Position numbers and translations under genes: made by a program. A stretch of 64,000 nucleotides of DNA from Pseudomonas sp. BSw22131 (GTDB lineage Bacteria; Pseudomonadota; Gammaproteobacteria; Pseudomonadales; Pseudomonadaceae), in NCBI RefSeq assembly GCF_026810445.1, contig NZ_CP113949.1:496001-560000 (forward strand), in the 5' to 3' direction. A model generated the notes under the pieces. That model ran no database searches, was not told where the DNA came from, and saw only the letters and a program-made list of their open reading frames with translations. Of the stretch, positions 32,804 to 44,806 are shown piece after piece. Each line of letters begins with the position of its first letter. Position 1 is the stretch's first letter.

Positions 32804-33610
32804 TTACTTCCCGTACTTCTCCCGTCCCCACTCAATCATCGCCTGCAACAGCGCCTTCAATACCACCCGCGTCGGATCGGCGAGGTCTGGGCGGTAGTGG
32901 AAGGGCACGAACTCATCCATATAAGTGCTCTGCGTCAGTTCCAGTTGCACCGCATGGATGTGGTTGGCCGGGTTGCCGTAATGGCGGGTGATGTGGCCAC
33001 CCTTGAAGCGTCCGTTCAGCACATGGCTGTAGTGGTCACCCGCTTCGGCGCATGTCGCTTCGAGCTTGCGGGCGAGGGTTTCATCACAACTGGTGCCATT
33101 GAACGTGCCGAGGTTGAAATCCGACAGGAGGCCGTCGAACAGATGGGGAATGTGGCCGCGGATCGAGTGTGCATCGAACAGCAGCGCGTAGCCGAATTCG
33201 TCGCGTAACCGCTCAAGCTCTTGCTGCAGCGTGTCGTGGTAAGGCGTCCAGATGTGCTCCAGATACGTTGCGCGCTCTGCTTTGCTCGGTGCCAGCCCTT
33301 CGTGGAACAACGGATCACCTTCGAACAGCGTGGCCGGAAATAATCCGGTGGTCGCGCCAGCGTACAACGGTGTGTCGTCGGACGGGCGGTTGAGGTCGAT
33401 GACGAAGCGCGAATACTCGGCGGCCAATACGCTGGCGCCCATCTCTTGGGCGAAGTCATAGAGGCGCGGGATGTGCCAGTCGGTGTCCGGCAGGCTGAGC
33501 GCGTCGACCACCAGCCCGGCTTTGACCGTTTCAGTCAGCTTCAGGCCGGGATGCGGCATGCTGATCAGCAATGGCAGGCTGCCGCGCGTAAAACTCAGAA
33601 CGTTGTCCAC
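32804..33610 (-). CDS. hutG: N-formylglutamate deformylase
   Basis: 268 residues from a GTG start with GGGAG upstream. The FGase-family strings are LLISMPHPG, YSRFVIDLNRP, the active region ALLFDAHSIRG and GRFKGGHITRHYG. It hydrolyses N-formylglutamate to formate and glutamate, the last step of the five-step histidine route, which fits with HutF upstream in the pathway. It is the last gene of the minus-strand hut set, 21 bases after hutI. Confidence 0.93.
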   Translation of the reverse strand: MDNVLSFTRGSLPLLISMPHPGLKLTETVKAGLVVDALSLPDTDWHIPRLYDFAQEMGASVLAAEYSRFVIDLNRPSDDTPLYAGATTGLFPATLFEGDPLFHEGLAPSKAERATYLEHIWTPYHDTLQQELERLRDEFGYALLFDAHSIRGHIPHLFDGLLSDFNLGTFNGTSCDETLARKLEATCAEAGDHYSHVLNGRFKGGHITRHYGNPANHIHAVQLELTQSTYMDEFVPFHYRPDLADPTRVVLKALLQAMIEWGREKYGK

Positions 33611-33631: not shown

Positions 33632-34837
33632 TTAGAAAGTGCTTTCGATGCCGTGACGCACGACCCTTTTTTCCAGATCGCCGCCCAGCCAGTAGGCCAG
33701 GTCTGCGGGCCGCTCGATGTTCCATGCAACGAAGTCGGCGACCTTGCCGACCTCAAGTGATCCGTGGGTTTCGGCCATGCCCAGCGCCTTGGCCGCATGG
33801 ATGGTCGCGCCCGCGAGTGCTTCCTCCGGGGTCATGCGGAACAACGTGCAGGCCATGTTCAGCATCAAGCGCAGCGACAGACCTGGCGAAGTGCCGGGGT
33901 TCAGGTCGGTGGCGATGGCGATGTTCACTCCGTGTTTACGCAAGGCGTCCATGGGCGGTAGCTGGGTTTCACGCAGAAAGTAAAACGCTCCGGGCAGCAA
34001 CACGGCCACCGTCCCTGCGGCGCCCATGGCGATCGCGTCTTCCTCGGTCATGAATTCCAGATGGTCCGCTGACAGCGCTTGATAACGCGCCGCCAGGCTT
34101 GAGCCGTGCAGCGACGACAATTGCTCGGCGTGCAGCTTGACCGGCAAACCCAGTTGGCCAGCCGTGATGAACACCTGTTCTACCTGATCGGTCGAGAAGG
34201 CCAGGTATTCGCAGAACGCGTCCACCGCATCCACCAGGCCTTCAGCGGCCAGCGCTGGCAGCATTTCGCCGCAGATGTGGTTGATGTAATCGTCGGCGCG
34301 GTCTTTGTATTCAGGGGGCAGGGCGTGAGCGGCGAGGCAGGTCGCCCGCACGGTTACGGGCAGATGCTCACCAAGACGGCGTGCGACGCGCAGCATCTTG
34401 CGTTCGTTTTCCAGATCCAGGCCGTAGCCGGACTTGATCTCGACCGTGGTCACGCCGTCCTTGAGCAAGTGCTTCAGGCGTCGCTCGGCGCTGGTGTACA
34501 ACTGGTCTTCACTGGCGGCCCGGGTGGCACGCACGGTGCTGGCAATACCGCCGCCTGCCGCTGCAATCTCGGCGTAGCTCACCCCTTGCAGCCGCTGTTC
34601 GAACTCTCCGCTGCGGTTGCCACCGAACACAGTGTGCGTATGGCAGTCGATCAGCCCTGGCGTTACCCACATGCCGTTCAGGTCAACGGTCTGCACATCG
34701 CCTTGAGGGGGCATTTCGGTGCGCGTGCCGATCCAGGAAATGTGCGCGCCTTCGGTCACGATGGCGGCGTCCTCGATGATCGAGTATTGGCCGTGCGCCA
34801 TGCTCGCGACGTGACAGTGCTGCCAGAGCGTTTTCAT
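33632..34837 (-). CDS. hutI: Imidazolonepropionase
   Basis: 401 residues; amidohydrolase fold. Metal ligands are [23 protein letters not shown] and [10 protein letters not shown]. The imidazolonepropionase markers [14 protein letters not shown] and [15 protein letters not shown] are present. It opens the imidazolone ring to give formiminoglutamate. GGAGG lies seven bases before the ATG. A REP pair separates it from hutT. Confidence 0.96.
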
Positions 34838-34960: not shown

Positions 34961-36355
34961 TCATGAGCGGTGCGATTCAAGTTGGGTCGAGTCCTGCCTG
35001 GGCCTGACCCACACGTAATACGCGATCACCAACAACACGATCCAGATCGCGCCGACAATCAGCGCTGCCTGCGTATCCGGGAACCAGCCCAGCACGCCGA
35101 ATACGAACAGCATGAACGCGGTTGCCACGACCGGCGCTACCGGCCAGAACGGCACCGGGAATTTCAGTTCGGCGGCCTGCTCGGTGGTCATCGAACGGCG
35201 CATTGCGATTTGCGTCAGCAGGATCATCAGCCATACCCAGACAGTGGCGAACGTCGCGATGGAGGCGATCAGCAGAAAGACGTTTTCCGGGATCAGGTAG
35301 TTGAGCACCACGCCGCACAGCAACGCTGCGCCCATCACCACGACTGTCATCCACGGCACGCCGTTGGCTGAAAGCTGCGCGAACCCCTTGGGGGCCTGAC
35401 CCTGTATCGCCAGGCCATACATCATGCGGCCGGCGCCAAAAATGTCGCTGTTGATGGCGGAAATCGCCGCCGAGATGACCACGATGTTAAGCACAGTCGC
35501 CGCTGAACCGATCCCCAGGTGATCGAAGATCTGGACGAACGGGCTGCCTTCGTTGCCGATCTGCTGCCACGGGTACAACGACATCAGCACGAACAGCGTC
35601 AGCACGTAGAACAGCAGGATTCGCAGTGGCACGGCGTTGATCGCGCGCGGAATTACCTTCTGTGGTTCTTTGGCTTCGCCTGCCGTGACGCCGATGATTT
35701 CAATGCCGCCGAAGGCAAACATCACCACCGCCAGCGACGCGACCATGCCACCGACGCCGTTGGGCATGAACCCACCGTGGGTCCAGAGGTTGCTGACACT
35801 GGCAGCGCCATCCACCGATGCCGAGCCGAAGCCGAATAATAGAATGCCGAAGCCTGCGAGGATCATCGCGACGATTGCCCCGACTTTGAGCAACGACAGC
35901 CAGAACTCGGTTTCACCGAAGACTTTGACGCTGCACAGGTTCAGCGCGCCAATGAAAAATATGATGCTCAGCACCCAGATCCAGCGCGGCACGTCGGGGA
36001 ACCAGAAGCCCATGTAGATCCCGAAGGCGGTGACGTCCGCCAGGCAGACGATGATCATCTCGAACGCGTAGGTCCAGCCCAGCACAAAGCCTGCGAGCGG
36101 GCCAAGCCAGGTACTGGCGTACTCGCCGAATGAGCCTGAAACCGGGTTGTGTACCGCCATTTCCCCCAGCGCGCGCATGACCATGTATACCGCTGCGCCG
36201 CCGATGAGGTAGACCAGCAGCACCGCAGGCCCCGCCATTTTGATGGCCTCGGCCGAGCCGTAGAACAGCCCTGTGCCGATGGCCGAACCGAGCGCCATGA
36301 AACGTATATGGCGTGCGGTCAATCCGCGTTTTAGGGCGGTGTGTTGCGTAGTCAT
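34961..36355 (-). CDS. hutT: Amino acid permease, probable histidine transporter
   Basis: 464 residues from the ATG at 36355, with AAGGAA six bases upstream. About twelve membrane segments. The amino-acid/polyamine/organocation signature is [20 protein letters not shown] followed by [11 protein letters not shown] and [13 protein letters not shown]. An in-frame 54-residue upstream extension crosses a REP element and lacks family likeness. The nearest named relatives are ProY and HisP-type permeases, and the hut context assigns it to histidine (HutT in P. fluorescens). Urocanate is an alternative substrate. Confidence 0.88.
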
Positions 36356-36411
36356 TTCGCGTTCCTTGATGTTCTGATGCGCTGAAATGATGTGGGTCCG
36401 GAGCGCAAGCT

Positions 36412-36504
36412 CTATAGGAGCGCGCTTGCCCGCGAATACGTCGGCACATACAACATCTATGTCGCCTGACACGTTACCTTTCGCGGGCAAGCGCGCTCCT
36501 GCAG
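36412..36504. repeat. REP pair between hutH and hutT
   Basis: CTATAGGAGCGCGCTTGCCC and an inverted partner ending GGGCAAGCGCGCTCCTGCAG. It fills the gap between hutH and hutT in the same transcript. Confidence 0.82.
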
Positions 36505-36563
36505 GGGAGTGATCCATCTCCCACTCATTTCAACGACAGACCCATCCTGGCCTGTCCGAGCAT

Positions 36564-38114
36564 TCAAAGGCTTGGAAGCAGGTCCGCAGGTGCCAGGGCA
36601 TTCAGGCATTGTGAAGCGAGCAACTGGATGGCCGCGTCGATGTCCGGCGCGAAGAAGCGGTCCTTCTCATAGAACGGCACCTGAGCGCGCAAGGCGGCAC
36701 GGGCTTTTTCCAGCTTGATCGAGGTTTTTAGCCCGTTGCGCAGGTCCAGGCCCTGGCACGCGGCGAGCCATTCTACGGCAAGAACGCCACGGGTGTTTTC
36801 TGCCATTTCCCATAAGCGCTTGCCGGCCGCCGGCGCCATCGACACGTGGTCTTCCTGGTTGGCCGAAGTCGGGATGCTGTCGACGCTGTGCGGGTGCGCC
36901 AACGCCTTGTTCTCGCTGGCCAGCGCCGCAGCGGTGACCTGCGCGATCATGAAGCCTGAGTTCACGCCGCCATTGGCCACCAGGAACGGCGGCAGCTGAG
37001 ACATGTGCTTGTCCATCATCAGTGAAATGCGACGCTCGCTCAGCGACCCGATTTCTGCCAGTGCCAAGGCCAGATTGTCAGCGGCCATTGCCACCGGTTC
37101 GGCGTGGAAGTTACCGCCGGAGATCACCTCACCCTCAGCCGCAAACACCAGTGGGTTGTCCGAAACAGCGTTGGCTTCGACCGCCAGCACGTCGGCGGCC
37201 TGACGCAGCTGCGTCAGACAGGCGCCCATGACTTGCGGTTGGCAACGCAGGGAGTATGGGTCTTGCACTTTGTCGCAGTCTCGATGGGAGTCGGACACTT
37301 CGCTGCCGTCGCCAAGCAAATCGCGATACGCCGCCGCTGCATCGATCTGACCACGTTGACCGCGTGCCGCGTGGATGCGCGCATCAAAGGGCGAGCGCGA
37401 ACCAAGCACCGCTTCAACCGTCAACGCGCCACAGGCCAAAGCACCGGCGAATAAATCTTCACCTTCAAACAGGCCACGCAAGGCGTAAGCAGTCGACACC
37501 TGCGTGCCGTTGAGCAACGCCAGGCCCTCTTTTGCCGCCAGTGTCAGCGGTTCAAGCCCGGCAATCGCCAATGCTTCTGCCGCGTTCAGCCATTGGCCGT
37601 TGTGGCGTGCCTTGCCTTCGCCGAGCAGTACCAGTGACATGTGCGCCAGTGGTGCCAGGTCGCCGGATGCGCCGACCGAACCCTTGAGCGGAATGTGCGG
37701 ATAGACCTCGGCGTTGATCAGTGCGATCAACGCGTTGATCACCTTGCGACGGATGCCGGAAAAGCCTCGGCTCAGGCTGTTGACCTTGAGCACCATGATC
37801 AGGCGCACCAGTTCGTCGCTGATCGGCTGGCCAACGCCTGCCGCATGGGAAAGCACCAGCGAGCGCTGCAGACTTTCCAGGTCGGCGCTGGCGATGCGTG
37901 TTGAAGCCAGCAGCCCGAAACCGGTGTTGATGCCGTAAGCGGTGCGGTTCTCGGCAAGGATCTGCTCGACGCAGGCGACGCTGTCTTCGATCTGCTGGTC
38001 GGCGCTGCTGTCCAGGCTCAGGGTCACAGGCTGCTGATAGATCGCGCGCAGTTGCGCCAGGGTCAGTTGGCCGGGGATCAGGTTCAGTGTGGTCGCCAGT
38101 GTTGAATCGGTCAC
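36564..38114 (-). CDS. hutH: Histidine ammonia-lyase
   Basis: 516 residues. The MIO cofactor triad Ala149-Ser150-Gly151 lies in [15 protein letters not shown]. Other active-site residues seen in the P. putida enzyme are present: Tyr60 (AYGINTGFG), His90 (LSHAAGVG), Asn202 (LLNGTQ), Gln284-Tyr287-Arg290 (QDPYSLR), Phe336 (GNFHAEP) and the QEDH glutamate. It deaminates histidine to urocanate. The GTG start has AAGGAG and overlaps the stop of the upstream paralogue (GTGA). This copy should supply the actual histidase activity. Confidence 0.96.
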
Positions 38115-39736
38115 GATGCTACTCCTTCGTTAATGTCGGTCGGGCGCCCTGAGCTGGCTCCTGCTTGCCCTGCACTGTTGGTGCTCGGAGCCCGACTGCT
38201 GATTGATGATTGTCCGTGGCAGGCGCGGAAAATCGTTTGAAGTGATTCTTCGTTTTTGAGCAGGGTCACGCTGCTGGCGATATCAGGCGCCAGCCAGCGG
38301 TCCTCGTCATAAGCGGGCACACGTTCGCGCAGCAATTGCCAGGCGATGTCGGTGCCAACGCCGAAACGCTGCTCCTTGAAAAATTCGAACGCCTGGGCCG
38401 CCAGCAGATACTCGATGGCAAGGATCTGCGTGACGTTTTCCAGCACTTTGTGCAGCTTCAGTGCAGCGCTGGTGCCCATGCTCAGGTGGTCTTCCTGAAG
38501 GCCGGAGGTGACGTAGTTGTCGATCACCGCAGGTTGCGCCAACTGGCGATTTTCGGCGCACAGCGAGGCGGCGACGTATTGCACAATCATCATTCCCGAG
38601 TTGACCCCCGGCTGGGTGACCAGAAACGCCGGCAAGCCGCTGACAGCGGGGTTGATCAGACGGTCCAGGCGGCGCTCGGCTATCGAACCCAGCTCTGCCA
38701 TCGCAATCGCCAGCAGGTCCGCCGCCATCGCCACTGACTGCCCGTGCGGGTTGGCTTGCGACACCACGCGATAAGCCTCGGGCGTGCCAAGCAGCAACGG
38801 GTTATCGGTGGCCGAGTTCAGTTCGATTTCGATCTGTCGGGTGGCGTGAGCCAACTGGTCACGCGTGGCGCCGTGCACCTGCGGAATCGAGCGGATGCTG
38901 AGCGCATCCTGCGTGCGAATGCCTTTGCTCAGCTCAAGCACTTCGCTGCCCGCCAACAAGCCGCGCAGGTTTCTGCCGACCTGTTGCATGCCCGGATGGG
39001 CTTTGAGGCCGATGATGGTTTCATCGAATGCGTCGAGCTGGCCGCGCAGCGCTTCAAAGGTCATGGCGCCGATGATGTCGGCCCACTGCGTCAGCCGTTG
39101 AACGTCGGCAATCGCCAGGCAGCTGAGGCCGGTCATGCACGGGGTGCCGTTGACCAGGCAAAGCCCGTCTTTGGCGCCCAGCACCACAGGCGAAAAACTT
39201 TCTTCGCTCAATGCCTGTAGCGCCGAAATGACCTGCCCGCGATAGCTCACCTGACCGACGCCCAGCAACGCGACCCCAATGTGCGCCATGTGGGTCAGAT
39301 AGCCCACCGAACCTTGTGAGGGCACCTGCGGGGTAATCCGATGGTTGAGCAACGCCAACAGGGCTTCGACGACCTGCCGATGAATGCCGGATTTACCCTG
39401 GCTGTAATTGATGATCGCGGCGCAGGTAATGGCGCGAGTCTGTTCATCGGGCAACGGTAAACCGACGCCGCACGCGTGGCTGAGCAAGGTGTTGCGTGAC
39501 AGCCGGCTCAGTTGCTCGCCTTCCAGCAGCACGTTGCACAACCCGCCCAGCCCGGTGTTGACGCCATAGGCGCGCTCGCCGCTGACGACGATGCGCTGGA
39601 CGATACCTTGCGCATTGTCGATGCGCGCCCAGGCGTTGGGCGACAGTTCAAGCCGCGCACCGTGACGGGCGACCGCAACGACGTCCTGCCAACCCAAAGG
39701 GGCATCACCGATGATGATCTGCTCAGCTCGCGACAT
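38111..39736 (-). CDS. HAL/PAL-family paralogue lacking the MIO Ala-Ser-Gly triad
   Basis: 541 residues, aligning throughout with the adjacent HutH. Where HutH reads [15 protein letters not shown], this protein reads [12 protein letters not shown]: after GSVG (residues 142-145) the three MIO-forming residues are absent, so the electrophilic cofactor cannot form by the known route. Further changes are Leu279 for the catalytic Tyr (QDALSIR) and Pro330 for the active-site Phe (ANPHGQ). Tyr57, His87, Asn196, Gln276, Arg282 and QEDH (414-417) remain. It is translated in the hut operon, 14 bases after hutV and overlapping hutH. A duplicate hutH is known in P. fluorescens hut loci. Its role, perhaps as a regulator or partner of HutH or a binding protein, is unknown. 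Confidence 0.85.
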
Positions 39737-39750
39737 GACTGCAACGGTCC

Positions 39751-40605
39751 TTAAAGGGTGGCCACGCGGCGCTGCACGAAACGATCAACGTATTCGTCGG
39801 CGGGTGAGTAGAGGATTTCCTTTGGCGTCCCGACCTGGATCAACTTGCCGTCCTTGAGGATGGCGATGCGATTGCCGATGCGCACGGCTTCGTCGAGGTC
39901 GTGGGTGATGAAGACGATGGTTTTCTTCAGCGCCGATTGCAGCTCCAGCAACTGGTCCTGCATCTCGGCGCGGATCAAGGGGTCGAGAGCGCTGAACGCC
40001 TCATCCATCAGGATGATGTCGGTGTCCGCCGCCAGTGCCCGAGCCAGACCCACACGCTGGCGCATGCCGCCGGAAAGCTGATGCGGGTATTTGTTTTCAT
40101 AGCCCTTGAGGCCCACGGTGGTGATCCAGTGCTGGGCACGCTCGTCGCACACGGCCTTGGTTTCGCCGCGTACTTTCAGGCCGTAGGACACGTTGTCCGC
40201 CACGGTCTTGTGCGGCAGCAGACCGAAGCTCTGAAACACCATGCTGATCTTGTGCCGACGGAAGTTGCGCAGCGCCTCCATGTCGTAGGTGAGGATGTCT
40301 TCGCCGTCGACCAGAATCTGGCCGCTGGTAGGATCGATCAGCCGGTTGAAGTGGCGCACCAGTGTGGATTTGCCTGAGCCTGAAAGGCCCATGATCACAA
40401 AGATCTCGCCGGCGGCGATGGACAGCGACAAGTCGTTCACACCCACCACGCAGCCCGTCTCAGCCAGCACCTGATCTTTGGACTTTTGCTGCTGGACCAT
40501 GCTCAGCGCGTCTTTGTAGCGGTTGCCGAAGATCTTGTAGACGTTTTTGACGACGATCTTGTTCGGCGTATCGCCGTGTGGCGTATTGAATTCAGCGCTG
40601 GTCAT
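39751..40605 (-). CDS. hutV: ABC transporter ATP-binding protein, glycine-betaine/histidine type
   Basis: 284 residues. Walker A GLSGSGKST, signature LSGGMRQRVGLARAL, Walker B DIILMDEAFSALD and the switch His in VFITHDLDEAVRIG. The N-terminal VVKNVYKIFGNRYKDAL opening is typical of the ProV/OpuAA branch, but it stops after the nucleotide domain without the CBS repeats of ProV. Named HutV by position in the hut set. Its start overlaps the hutW stop (ATGA), so translation is coupled. Confidence 0.92.
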   Translation of the reverse strand: MTSAEFNTPHGDTPNKIVVKNVYKIFGNRYKDALSMVQQQKSKDQVLAETGCVVGVNDLSLSIAAGEIFVIMGLSGSGKSTLVRHFNRLIDPTSGQILVDGEDILTYDMEALRNFRRHKISMVFQSFGLLPHKTVADNVSYGLKVRGETKAVCDERAQHWITTVGLKGYENKYPHQLSGGMRQRVGLARALAADTDIILMDEAFSALDPLIRAEMQDQLLELQSALKKTIVFITHDLDEAVRIGNRIAILKDGKLIQVGTPKEILYSPADEYVDRFVQRRVATL

Positions 40606-41453
40606 TTGTTGGCCTCATGCCGTGGTCGGCCATAGGCCTGCGTGATGCGGTCGATCACCACCGCGAGGATCACGATCGCCAGACCGGCTTCAAGGCCGCG
40701 TCCGACGTTCAGCGTTTGAATGCCGATCAGCACGTCTTCACCCAGGCCGCGAGCGCCGATCATCGAGGCAATCACCACCATCGACAGCGCCATCATCGTG
40801 GTCTGGTTGATACCGGCCATGATGCTCGGCAGGGCCAGCGGCAGTTGCACGCCGAACAGTTGCTGCCAGCGATTGGCGCCGAACGCGTTGATCGCCTCCA
40901 TCACCTCGCCATCCACCTGCCGAATGCCCAGATCCGTCAGGCGGATCAGCGGCGGCGCGGCGTAAATGACGGTGGCGAAGATCGCCGGTACTTTGCCCAG
41001 GCCAAAGAGCATCAACACCGGGATCAGATACACGAAGCTCGGCATCGTTTGCATGATGTCGAGTAGCGGCATCAGCACCGAACGCAGGCGGTTGCTGCGC
41101 GCCGAAAGAATGCCCAGCGGAATGCCGATCAGCACCGAAATGAAGGTCGCGACCAGCATCAGCGCCAGGGTTTGCATCAGCTTGTCCCACAGGCCGACTG
41201 CGCCCACCAGGAACAGCAAACCGACAATCACCGCCGTGGTGGTGAATTTGCGGGTGGCGTGCCAGGCGATGCCGCCCACGATGGCCAGCAACAGCCACCA
41301 TGGTGCGATGCGCAGCAGGCCTTCGAGTTTGACGATGGCCCACAGCAGCGTGTCGGAGATGTGCCGGAACACGTCGCCGTAATTGGTGACCAGCTTGTCG
41401 ACCCAGTCGTTGACCCAATTGGCGATGGAAAACGTAAAGCTCTCGGGGAACAT
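40602..41453 (-). CDS. hutW: ABC transporter permease, glycine-betaine/histidine type
   Basis: 283 residues with about five to six membrane segments. The permease loop MEAINAFGANRWQQLFGVQLPLALPSIMAG couples to HutV. ProW-like features such as SVLMPLLDIMQTMPSFVYLIPVLMLFG (a run typical of OpuAB) are present. It forms the channel for HutX-bound substrate. It overlaps hutV by four bases. Confidence 0.92.
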   Translation of the reverse strand: MFPESFTFSIANWVNDWVDKLVTNYGDVFRHISDTLLWAIVKLEGLLRIAPWWLLLAIVGGIAWHATRKFTTTAVIVGLLFLVGAVGLWDKLMQTLALMLVATFISVLIGIPLGILSARSNRLRSVLMPLLDIMQTMPSFVYLIPVLMLFGLGKVPAIFATVIYAAPPLIRLTDLGIRQVDGEVMEAINAFGANRWQQLFGVQLPLALPSIMAGINQTTMMALSMVVIASMIGARGLGEDVLIGIQTLNVGRGLEAGLAIVILAVVIDRITQAYGRPRHEANK

Positions 41454-41640: not shown

Positions 41641-42609
41641 TCAGAGCGAAGCATCCACCTTCTTCGCTGCGTCTTCGCTCACCCACTGGTGCCAGATTTC
41701 AGGGTGTTCCTTGAGGAAGATCTTCGCCAGTTTCGGCGACTCGATGCGTTCCTTTGTCATGCGCGCCAGGTTCTGGTTCAGCAAATCGATAGGGATGTTG
41801 GCTTTCTCCATCACGGCTACCAGTTCAGGCGCCTGGTCGTGGAATGCTTTAGACAGGCCGACCTTGATGTCGATGGTCTTGTTCACGCCGGCTTTTTCTT
41901 CCAGGCGCACCATGTCCACTTGCCCCATCAGCGGTGTCGGCGACCAGTAATACGCAAGGATCGGCTCGCCACGCTTGTAGCTCGACAAAATCGCTGCATC
42001 CAGCGCCGGGCCGGTGCCTGGGCGGAAGTTGGTGTATTTGTCTTCCAGGCCATAGCTTTTCAGCATTTCGCTGTTCTCAAGCTCGCAGGTCCAGCCCGCC
42101 GGGCAGTTGTAGAAGCGGCCTTTTTCTGGCTCTTCGGCGTCTTTGAACAGAGACGCGTATTTGGCCAGGTCGCTGATCGACTTCAAGTCCGGGGCCTTGG
42201 CTTCCAGCTTGCGTTTGGCGTCGCCTTCGATCACGTAGCGCGGCACGTACCAGCCTTCGATGGCGCCTTTGACGGGTGCGCCGACGCCGACGACTTTTCC
42301 GGCTTTTTCAGCTTTGTTCCAGACTTCGCTGCGGCCGACCCACTCCTCGGCGAAGACTTGAATGTCGTTGGTGCTCAGGGCGTTTTCCATGGTGATGGAG
42401 TTGCCCGGCAGGCTGTCGACTTCGCAGCCGTATCCGGTTTTCAGAATGTCTTGCAGCACGTCGGTCAGCAGCATCGCGCTTTCCCAGTTCAGACCGGCGA
42501 ATTTCACCGGTTTACCGGATTCGCACCACCCGGCCGCCTGGCTAGCGCCTGCCCCGGTCAACAAGCCTGCGCATAGCAATGTGGATAACAGGGCCTTTTT
42601 GGTTTTCAT
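41641..42609 (-). CDS. hutX: Periplasmic substrate-binding protein, OpuAC type, probable histidine binder
   Basis: 322 residues with a signal peptide (STLLCAGLLTGAGASQA-AG). The OpuAC-type opening KPVKFAGLNWESAMLLTDVLQ and GNSITMENALSTNDIQVFAEEWVGR are characteristic. Relatives bind glycine betaine, choline or histidine. The adjoining HutWV and hut enzymes point to histidine. A terminator and a decayed REP lie between hutU and this gene, so it may also have its own promoter. Confidence 0.9.
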   Translation of the reverse strand: MKTKKALLSTLLCAGLLTGAGASQAAGWCESGKPVKFAGLNWESAMLLTDVLQDILKTGYGCEVDSLPGNSITMENALSTNDIQVFAEEWVGRSEVWNKAEKAGKVVGVGAPVKGAIEGWYVPRYVIEGDAKRKLEAKAPDLKSISDLAKYASLFKDAEEPEKGRFYNCPAGWTCELENSEMLKSYGLEDKYTNFRPGTGPALDAAILSSYKRGEPILAYYWSPTPLMGQVDMVRLEEKAGVNKTIDIKVGLSKAFHDQAPELVAVMEKANIPIDLLNQNLARMTKERIESPKLAKIFLKEHPEIWHQWVSEDAAKKVDASL

Positions 42610-42814: not shown

Positions 42815-44506
42815 TTAGCCGGTGATCATCGGCAGGTTAAGGCCCTGCTCTTTGGCGCAGTCGATTGCGATCTGGTAGCCCGCGTCTGCGTGGCGCATCA
42901 CGCCGGTTGCCGGATCGTTGTGCAGCACGCGCGCGATACGCTCGGCCGCTTCATCGGTACCGTCACACACGATGACCATCCCCGAATGCTGCGAAAAGCC
43001 CATGCCGACGCCGCCACCGTGGTGCAACGACACCCACGTCGCGCCGCTGGCGGTATTGAGCAGGGCGTTGAGCAGTGGCCAGTCGGAGACGGCGTCTGAG
43101 CCGTCCTGCATCGACTCGGTTTCGCGGTTCGGGCTGGCGACCGAGCCCGAATCCAGGTGATCGCGACCGATGACCACCGGCGCCGACAGCTCGCCGCTGC
43201 GCACCATTTCATTGAAGGCCAGGCCAAGTTTGGCGCGCTGGCCCAGACCGACCCAGCAGATACGCGCCGGCAGGCCCTGAAACGCAATGCGTTCACGCGC
43301 CATTTCCAGCCAGTTGTGCAGGTGTGCGTCGTCCGGAATCAGCTCTTTGACTTTTGCGTCTGTCTTGTAGATGTCTTGGGGGTCGCCTGACAGCGCTGCC
43401 CAGCGGAAGGGGCCTACGCCACGGCAGAACAGTGGACGAATGTACGCGGGGACGAATCCTGGGAAATCGAACGCGTTGTCAACGCCCACTTCTTTAGCCA
43501 TCTGACGGATGTTGTTGCCGTAATCGAAGGTCGGGATGCCCATTTTCTGGAACGCCAGCATCGCTTCGACGTGCTCGGCCATCGACTGCTTTGCGGCTTT
43601 TACGACGGCGGCGGGCTCGCTGGCGGCGCGTTCGCGATACTGCTCCCAGGTCCAGCCCTTCGGCAGGTAGCCATTGAGTGGGTCGTGGGCGCTGGTCTGG
43701 TCGGTGACCATGTCCGGGCGTACGCCACGGCGAACCATTTCCGGGAGGATTTCTGCCGCGTTGCCACACAAGGCGATGGAAATCGCCTTGCCTTCGGATG
43801 TGTACTTGGCGATTCGGGCCAGCGCGTCGTCCAGATCCGTGGCTTGTTCGTCGACGTAACGGGTTTTCAGTCGGAAATCGATTCGGCTCTGCTGGCATTC
43901 GATGTTCAGCGAGCATGCGCCCGCCATGCCAGCGGCCAGAGGCTGTGCGCCGCCCATGCCGCCCAGACCTGCGGTCAGCACCCACTTGCCCTTGAGGTCG
44001 CCGTTGTAATGTTGGCGTCCGGCTTCAACGAAGGTTTCGTAAGTGCCCTGAACGATGCCCTGGCTGCCGATGTAGATCCAGCTACCCGCTGTCATCTGGC
44101 CGTACATGGCCAGGCCTTTTGCATCGAGTTCGTTGAAGTGCTCCCAACTCGCCCAGTGCGGCACGAGGTTGGAGTTGGCGATGAGCACGCGAGGGGCGTT
44201 GGTGTGGGTCTTGAATACGCCGACCGGTTTGCCGGATTGCACCAGCAGGGTCTCGTCGTCGTTCAGGTGGGTGAGGCTTTCGACGATTTTGTCGTAGCAC
44301 TCCCAGTTGCGTGCTGCCCGGCCGATACCGCCGTAGACCACCAACTCATTCGGGTTCTCGGCGACGTCCGGATCCAGGTTGTTCATCAACATCCGCAACG
44401 GCGCTTCGGTCATCCAGCTCTTGGCAGTGAGTGTGGTACCACGAGCAGCGCGGATTTCGACGTCGCGGCGTTTGGTCCATTGCGGGGTATTGTTCTCAGT
44501 AGTCAC
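42815..44506 (-). CDS. hutU: Urocanate hydratase
   Basis: 563 residues from a GTG at 44506, preceded by GAGGA at seven bases. This start gives the usual opening [23 protein letters not shown] 79-residue upstream extension is open but would run through the promoter and is rejected. NAD-binding [15 protein letters not shown], the [13 protein letters not shown] segment with the conserved region around [22 protein letters not shown] (split), and [17 protein letters not shown] are present. It converts urocanate to imidazolonepropionate. It heads the long minus-strand hut set and has a strong terminator after it. Confidence 0.96.
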
Positions 44507-44663
44507 GTAGCAATCCTCGATGATCGATCCAGACCGGCCCAGGCACATGGGCGAACGGTGCCTGCGGCGAACAGGCGGAACAGGTAGTTGGTAGCGCCTC
44601 GCCGGGATGACTTTAGCAGCTCGCATCAGCGCGATGGACGTCACTCGTGCGTACCCATCTTTA

Positions 44664-44677
44664 CTTGTACATACAAG
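44664..44677. promoter_or_regulatory. Likely HutC operator at the hutU promoter
   Basis: CTTGTA-CA-TACAAG is a perfect inverted repeat of six-base arms and fits the TGTA-N2-TACA type site bound by HutC (GntR family). It begins just past the predicted -12 element and covers the expected start of transcription, so bound HutC would block hutU. Confidence 0.7.
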
Positions 44678-44681
44678 CATA

Positions 44682-44698
44682 TGCAAGCGAGAGACCAA
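44682..44698 (-). promoter_or_regulatory. Candidate sigma-54 promoter for hutU
   Basis: On the minus strand TTGGTCTCTCGCTTGCA has GG and GC ten bases apart with TTGCA at the -12 side, close to TGGCAC-N5-TTGC. Use of sigma-54 with CbrB/NtrC at hutU is known in P. fluorescens. The HutC-type palindrome lies immediately downstream. Confidence 0.6.
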
Positions 44699-44806
44699 CT
44701 TCATCATGACAGCCGAAAAGACCGTTTCATCTTGACGGGGCAAGGCTTTCAGCGGGAGGAGGGCATTCGTTGTTCCTGCATTCGACGCACAGGCTGCTGA
44801 CGGGGA

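Follow-up and report, generated by a model that had tools for sequence, protein, structure and literature searches.

The hut operon of Pseudomonas sp. BSw22131 encodes, beside an intact histidine ammonia-lyase (HAL; HutH), a second protein of the same family, HutH1, which is a full-length HAL-fold paralogue of HutH without the Ala-Ser-Gly triad that makes the 4-methylideneimidazole-5-one (MIO) cofactor. We propose, at a probability of roughly two in three, that HutH1 is a MIO-independent hercynine trimethylamine-lyase, which would split hercynine into urocanate and trimethylamine and feed the urocanate to HutU. It is the gene neighbours that point to trimethylamine release from a betaine. MIO-less trimethylamine-lyases with the HAL fold are already known in the form of ergothionase (PMC13405746, in the portion accessible). 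The window, the whole stretch analysed here, has 64,000 nt (positions 496,001-560,000, forward strand, of NZ_CP113949.1, assembly GCF_026810445.1). The features of the gene are as follows.

38111..39736, minus strand: hutH1, ATG start, a MIO-less HAL-family protein of 541 aa, proposed hercynine trimethylamine-lyase
39299..39313, minus strand: MIO-forming site of hutH1, codons 142-146, reading GSVGY against GSVGASGD in HutH
38114..38200, minus strand: C-terminal tail of hutH1, codons 513-541, pLDDT <50 in the predicted structure
38111..38114, minus strand: GTGA, in which the hutH1 stop overlaps the hutH start

HutH1 and the HutH of the window align from end to end at 38% identity, with a net gap of three residues at the MIO site. 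An earlier sequence-only reading of this DNA had described the pair in this way and had taken the gap to be exactly the three MIO residues. The net length agrees, but the site can be read in two ways, either as ASG deleted together with a D-to-Y change or as ASGD replaced by a single Tyr, and MAFFT with more sequences chooses the second. The alignment also reproduces the residues named in that reading: Tyr57, His87, Asn196, Gln276, Arg282, and Glu415 are retained, and the pocket residues Tyr287 and Phe336 of HutH are replaced by Leu279 and Pro330. HutH1 has the HAL fold and domain. A metal site made from a His149/His152 pair was considered and set aside, His152 being missing in most of the listed rhizobial relatives (92 of the 120 listed).

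The triad is missing throughout the orthologues. Among the 130 loci examined first, which include some places fetched twice, 131 open reading frames (ORFs) were nearer to HutH1 by score and 108 nearer to HutH. GSVGY without ASG was found in 131/131 of the former, with one common 11-residue site string in 123, and one 14-residue MIO-site string in all 108 of the latter. The deduplicated set holds 118 HutH1 rows (the window protein and 117 further, distinct sequences); Tyr146 without the triad occurs in every one of them and in 10/10 divergent relatives, and ASGD is kept in 108/108 HutH rows. A sequencing error or a strain-local deletion is thereby excluded. Three protein searches with different queries returned 7674, 7684, and 2656 matches, and Tyr replaces the triad in 360/360 of those inspected, the best 120 of each. 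Where the MIO-less proteins found here have names, these read histidine (or aromatic amino acid) ammonia-lyase or HAL/PAL/TAL family; the name "ergothionase" was not seen among the printed names of these 360, many of which are nameless and others named in truncated form. A strict class-wide motif search hit 2/369 genomes, the window's own being one.

Selection on the gene is purifying. By the Nei-Gojobori method, the median dN/dS of HutH1 across 70 loci is 0.121 (2415/2415 pairs with dS 0.1-1.5), and that of HutH at the same loci is 0.081 (2413/2415 pairs). These low values mean that hutH1 is maintained, as had been supposed from the sequence, though under somewhat weaker constraint than HutH; gene decay, with a ratio near 1, is excluded. 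Fifteen presumed active-site positions were picked by hand and are therefore not a random set; 14 of them are invariant (at least 99% among the 118 rows), whereas the core as a whole has 205 such positions out of 486. Release of the active site from constraint, the mark of a pseudoenzyme, is thus not seen.

In the window, a transporter of betaine type is encoded just upstream of hutH1, within an otherwise recognisable hut operon.

36564..38114, minus strand: hutH, canonical MIO-type histidine ammonia-lyase, ASG at residues 149-151 (TIGR01225 734.8 vs 539.15)
39751..40605, minus strand: hutV-like ATPase of the betaine/proline/choline family (TIGR01186 362.7 vs cut-off 326.6)
40602..41453, minus strand: hutW-like permease, ChoW/ProW-like (best NCBIfam match under its cut-off)
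41641..42609, minus strand: hutX-like substrate-binding protein, OpuAC (PF04069 206.7 bits; NCBIfam matches under cut-off)
42815..44743, minus strand: hutU, true urocanate hydratase (TIGR01228 1019.7 vs 375)
34961..36517, minus strand: hutT-like amino acid permease, named by operon position
33632..34837, minus strand: hutI, amidohydrolase, named by operon position
32804..33610, minus strand: hutG, N-formylglutamate amidohydrolase

Judged by its families, HutXWV is an ABC transporter of the choline/glycine-betaine kind (ChoXWV/ProU-like). HutX aligns with 7yle, a betaine/proline-family binding protein, and aromatic residues are common to both; its Trp90, Trp120, Tyr221, and Trp222 do not vary in an alignment of six relatives, of which three lack a nearby HAL gene. 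HutU scores 694.2 and 712.1 with two thiourocanate hydratase models, under their cut-offs of 930 and 880. The window thus holds a urocanase rather than the thiourocanate-processing partner gene of an ergothionase, and a sulfur-free product is expected. The hutU ORF as listed begins at TTG with its family match from residue 96, and the true start is probably further inside ORF 42815-44743.

The same association was surveyed in 149 Pseudomonas genomes, with HutH1 orthologues defined by at least 57% identity, HutX by at least 70%, and HutH by E <1e-170 (one partial). HutH1 is present in 104 genomes and HutX in 95 of these; one genome has HutX without HutH1, and 44 have neither. HutH is matched in 139, including all 104 with HutH1, and of the 35 genomes in which HutH occurs without HutH1, none has HutX. 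The distribution of HutH1 therefore follows that of a transporter and not that of HutH. HutX is lacking from nine HutH1 genomes; of these, three carry a BCCT transporter, two another ABC type (by our own ORF reading), and four retain a HutV-like gene. The BCCT (betaine/carnitine/choline) transporter of L031, L032, and L033 (L numbers denote loci, G numbers genomes) scores 386-388 bits, lies between hutU and hutH1, and is a non-homologous replacement of HutXWV at the same place. HutV is directly upstream of HutH1 in 78 of 80 named Pseudomonas loci, the other two starting at a contig edge, and directly downstream lies HutH in 70, the permease in seven, and no queried hut gene in three, L097 among them.

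The GTGA overlap in the window, with gaaggag upstream of it, had been taken as translational control of hutH1 with hutH. The overlap itself stands; however, the estimated gap is negative at only 13 of the 70 loci (0-50 nt at 7, >50 nt at 50), and coupling was rejected as the general meaning of hutH1. Some gene orders depart from the usual one. In Pseudomonas vlassakiae (L097), hutXWV-hutH1 stands without other queried hut genes in 9 kb flanks, as if a separate module, and genome G043 (L145) has HutX and HutV-like genes with no HutH1 or HutH match. G023, G026, G050, G051, G086, G115, and G120 have as their best HutH match a protein of only 63-64% identity encoded apart from hutH1, presumably a second HutH type.

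Relatives outside this operon type are informative about the substrate. Agrobacterium Ach5 (L150) combines a HutXWV-like ABC transporter with a MIO-less relative, 44% identical to the window protein, and neighbours that exceed curated cut-offs for S-methyl thiourocanate hydratase (975.8/880), ErtD (782.8/600), and ErtE (576.1/520); the models name the latter two hydantoin-5-propionate amidohydrolase and N-carbamyl-glutamate amidohydrolase. In this ergothioneine-type cluster, the MIO-less lyase likely opens a thiohistidine-betaine pathway by releasing trimethylamine. The window and Ach5 proteins fall in one 19-row clade (support 100/100) and share the kind of ABC transporter and the key residues; besides the modest identity, they differ in a loop reading HAV for NPH and in the hydratase partner of the Ach5 enzyme. 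In the tree, which has no phenylalanine (PAL) or tyrosine (TAL) ammonia-lyase outgroup to tell one MIO loss from several, the 10 MIO-type rows, one of which (Fusobacterium) reads SSG, lie on one side of a branch with support of only 83/82 when the motif columns are dropped. The hut cluster of Aureimonas AU20 (L167) has no HutH-like gene other than that of the MIO-less relative; an OpuAC ABC transporter adjoins, and HutU is a true urocanase (984.7 vs 375). In S. meliloti (L149), a MIO-less HAL follows hutC-hutF-hutXWV. Of 30 listed plasmid records with HutX, 14 have by their coordinates a MIO-less HAL hit on the same strand at a distance of a few kb, several of these strains being near-identical, and six others were fetched and show no HAL gene close by. 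L162 and L163 carry a MIO-less relative after an OsmF-like OpuAC ABC transporter that is under the OsmF cut-off.

Other gene orders were recorded as well. L162:1459-11180 and L163:1634-10436 read consecutively UTRA regulator, OsmF-like ABC, MIO-less HAL, CoA transferase, 3-hydroxyacyl-CoA dehydrogenase, and enoyl-CoA hydratase. Three loci, L136:8986-11647, L168:6995-9643, and L038:3845-9829, have a solA-like (DAO) oxidase in the vicinity of both a MIO-less HAL and an ABC transporter of amino-acid type. L035:6569-12606 (minus) and L034 have an operon of enolase-superfamily protein, Rieske oxygenase, Ldh_2 dehydrogenase, MIO-less HAL, and Fer2 reductase, with families tested in L035; it resembles a pathway for betaines or methylamines.

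According to the hercynine proposal, HutXWV would import hercynine (N-alpha-trimethylhistidine, histidine betaine), HutH1 would remove trimethylamine from it, and urocanate would pass to HutU. The quaternary nitrogen leaves readily as it is, so the MIO would not be needed. Going by residue roles known from work on HAL, the retained Tyr57 would take the beta proton, the imidazole would be bound by His87 and Glu415, and the carboxylate by Arg282, Asn196, and Gln276. Room for the N-trimethyl group would come from Leu279 and Pro330, which stand where HutH has a bulky Tyr and Phe next to the MIO. The proposal draws on the betaine-type transporter directly upstream, HutX tracking HutH1, the BCCT replacement, the Ach5 and Aureimonas clusters, the kept imidazole and carboxylate residues, and the ergothionase precedent. 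The thiohistidine-betaine context in Ach5, together with the urocanase-type HutU of the window, makes sulfur-free hercynine the best candidate.

Several observations weigh against this proposal. S. meliloti HutX is said to import histidine as well, so HutXWV is no proof of a betaine substrate, and HutXWV-like systems occur without a HAL gene in 6-7 kb flanks (L151-L154, L165, L166). With 83-85 against a cut-off of 400, the scores of the OsmF-like binding proteins do not fix their ligand, and the amino-acid-type (SBP_bac_3) ABC transporters beside MIO-less relatives in L133, L134, and L168 carry no information on betaines. The solA-type oxidases (that of L038 by our own ORF reading) and the L035 operon with its enolase-superfamily, Rieske, and Ldh_2 proteins belong here too. 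His87 and Glu415, taken to form the imidazole site, are also retained in the CoA-pathway relatives L162 and L163 and so do not separate substrates, and loop 329-331 is NPH in HutH1 vs HAV in the Agrobacterium and rhizobial relatives. The statement on Aureimonas covers the L167 cluster, not the chromosome. T. denticola ergothionase (PDB 6s7j) is 28% identical to HutH1, and, judged from alignment ranges alone, in which 33 of its residues stand against 31 profile positions, its loop at the MIO site appears to be longer by two residues.

The foremost alternative, unlikely in our view, is a MIO-independent lyase for ergothioneine or S-modified ergothioneine instead of hercynine. The Ach5 cluster and the MIO-less state of ergothionase (PMC13405746, as far as accessible) favour it, but the window HutU falls far under both thiourocanate hydratase cut-offs, and Aureimonas pairs its MIO-less enzyme with a true hutU. 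The sequence-only reading had put a pseudoenzyme partner of HutH in the lead, with a ligand-sensing protein and an enzyme of different chemistry as further options; the last is now favoured. A pseudoenzyme, either a mixed-tetramer partner of HutH or a histidine- or urocanate-binding regulator, is rather unlikely as well. The absent MIO, the replaced pocket Tyr and Phe, the place of hutH1 directly upstream of hutH in 70/80 loci, and the HutH match in every HutH1-positive genome would suit it. Against this stand the upstream HutV, the HutX counts, the invariant active-site positions, and relatives in clusters without an adjacent HutH (L150, L167). Furthermore, in G023, G051, and G086 the best HutH match, 63% identical, is encoded at another place in the genome; it is assigned by identity and not by its MIO-site letters.

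Action on another histidine-like compound (e.g. N-methylhistidine), or another reaction such as isomerisation, is improbable. It would fit the solA-type oxidases by MIO-less relatives with amino-acid-type ABC transporters (L136, L168, L038) and the Rieske and enolase-superfamily genes beside L035, but not the linkage to three betaine-type transporter kinds (ChoXWV/ProU-like, BCCT, OsmF-like). That HutH1 is a second ordinary histidine ammonia-lyase, its electrophile made another way, is scarcely credible. It passes PRK09367, an NCBIfam model named histidine ammonia-lyase, despite the absent triad (543.3 vs 524), but fails the TIGR01225 equivalog (533.8 vs 539.15), which HutH exceeds, and has no Ala-Ser-Gly at the site.

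By operon place, the window gene is the 'HutH1' of P. fluorescens. In SBW25, hutXWV-hutH1 likewise lies between hutU and hutH (PMC8871633, in part; matched by position), and P. fluorescens-labelled loci (e.g. L088, L096, L112, L119) carry the window's hutH1 gene. In the accessible part of that paper, the text on SBW25 HutH1 does not mention the MIO. The sequence-only reading knew of no description of the loss: for HutH1 no description of it, nor of any hercynine lyase, was found in the parts seen of the open-licence literature, subscription journals lying mostly outside the search, but MIO loss in a HAL-fold enzyme as such is not new, given ergothionase. The ergothionases of T. denticola and Burkholderia sp. 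HME13 act on a sulfur substrate, unlike the hercynine proposed for HutH1. By the usual hut gene order, PA5093 of PAO1 is presumably hutH1, and we take Tyr280 and Phe329 of P. putida HutH to be the positions not kept in HutH1. The MIO triad of that MIO-type HAL (PDB 1b8f) is not kept either. The part of PMC12772324 available lists PA5093 as hutG. Further papers cited are PMC12977541, PMC8069873, PMC11089744, and PMC7653990.

More broadly, we see even odds that the GSVGY clade (Pseudomonas, Erwinia, Burkholderia, rhizobia, bacilli, and others) consists of cofactor-free trimethylamine-lyases for histidine-type betaines, with HutH1 as the hercynine branch in the hut operon, through which histidine betaine would join histidine catabolism at urocanate and bypass histidine. 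If the hercynine proposal is true, the puzzling second hutH of fluorescent pseudomonads would be explained, and hercynine, the ergothioneine precursor, would be added to the substrates of a classic catabolic operon. Many database names (histidine ammonia-lyase, HAL/PAL/TAL) would be corrected. A cofactor-dependent fold would be seen to work without its cofactor when given a good leaving group, and a source of trimethylamine in soil and plant bacteria would be recognised.
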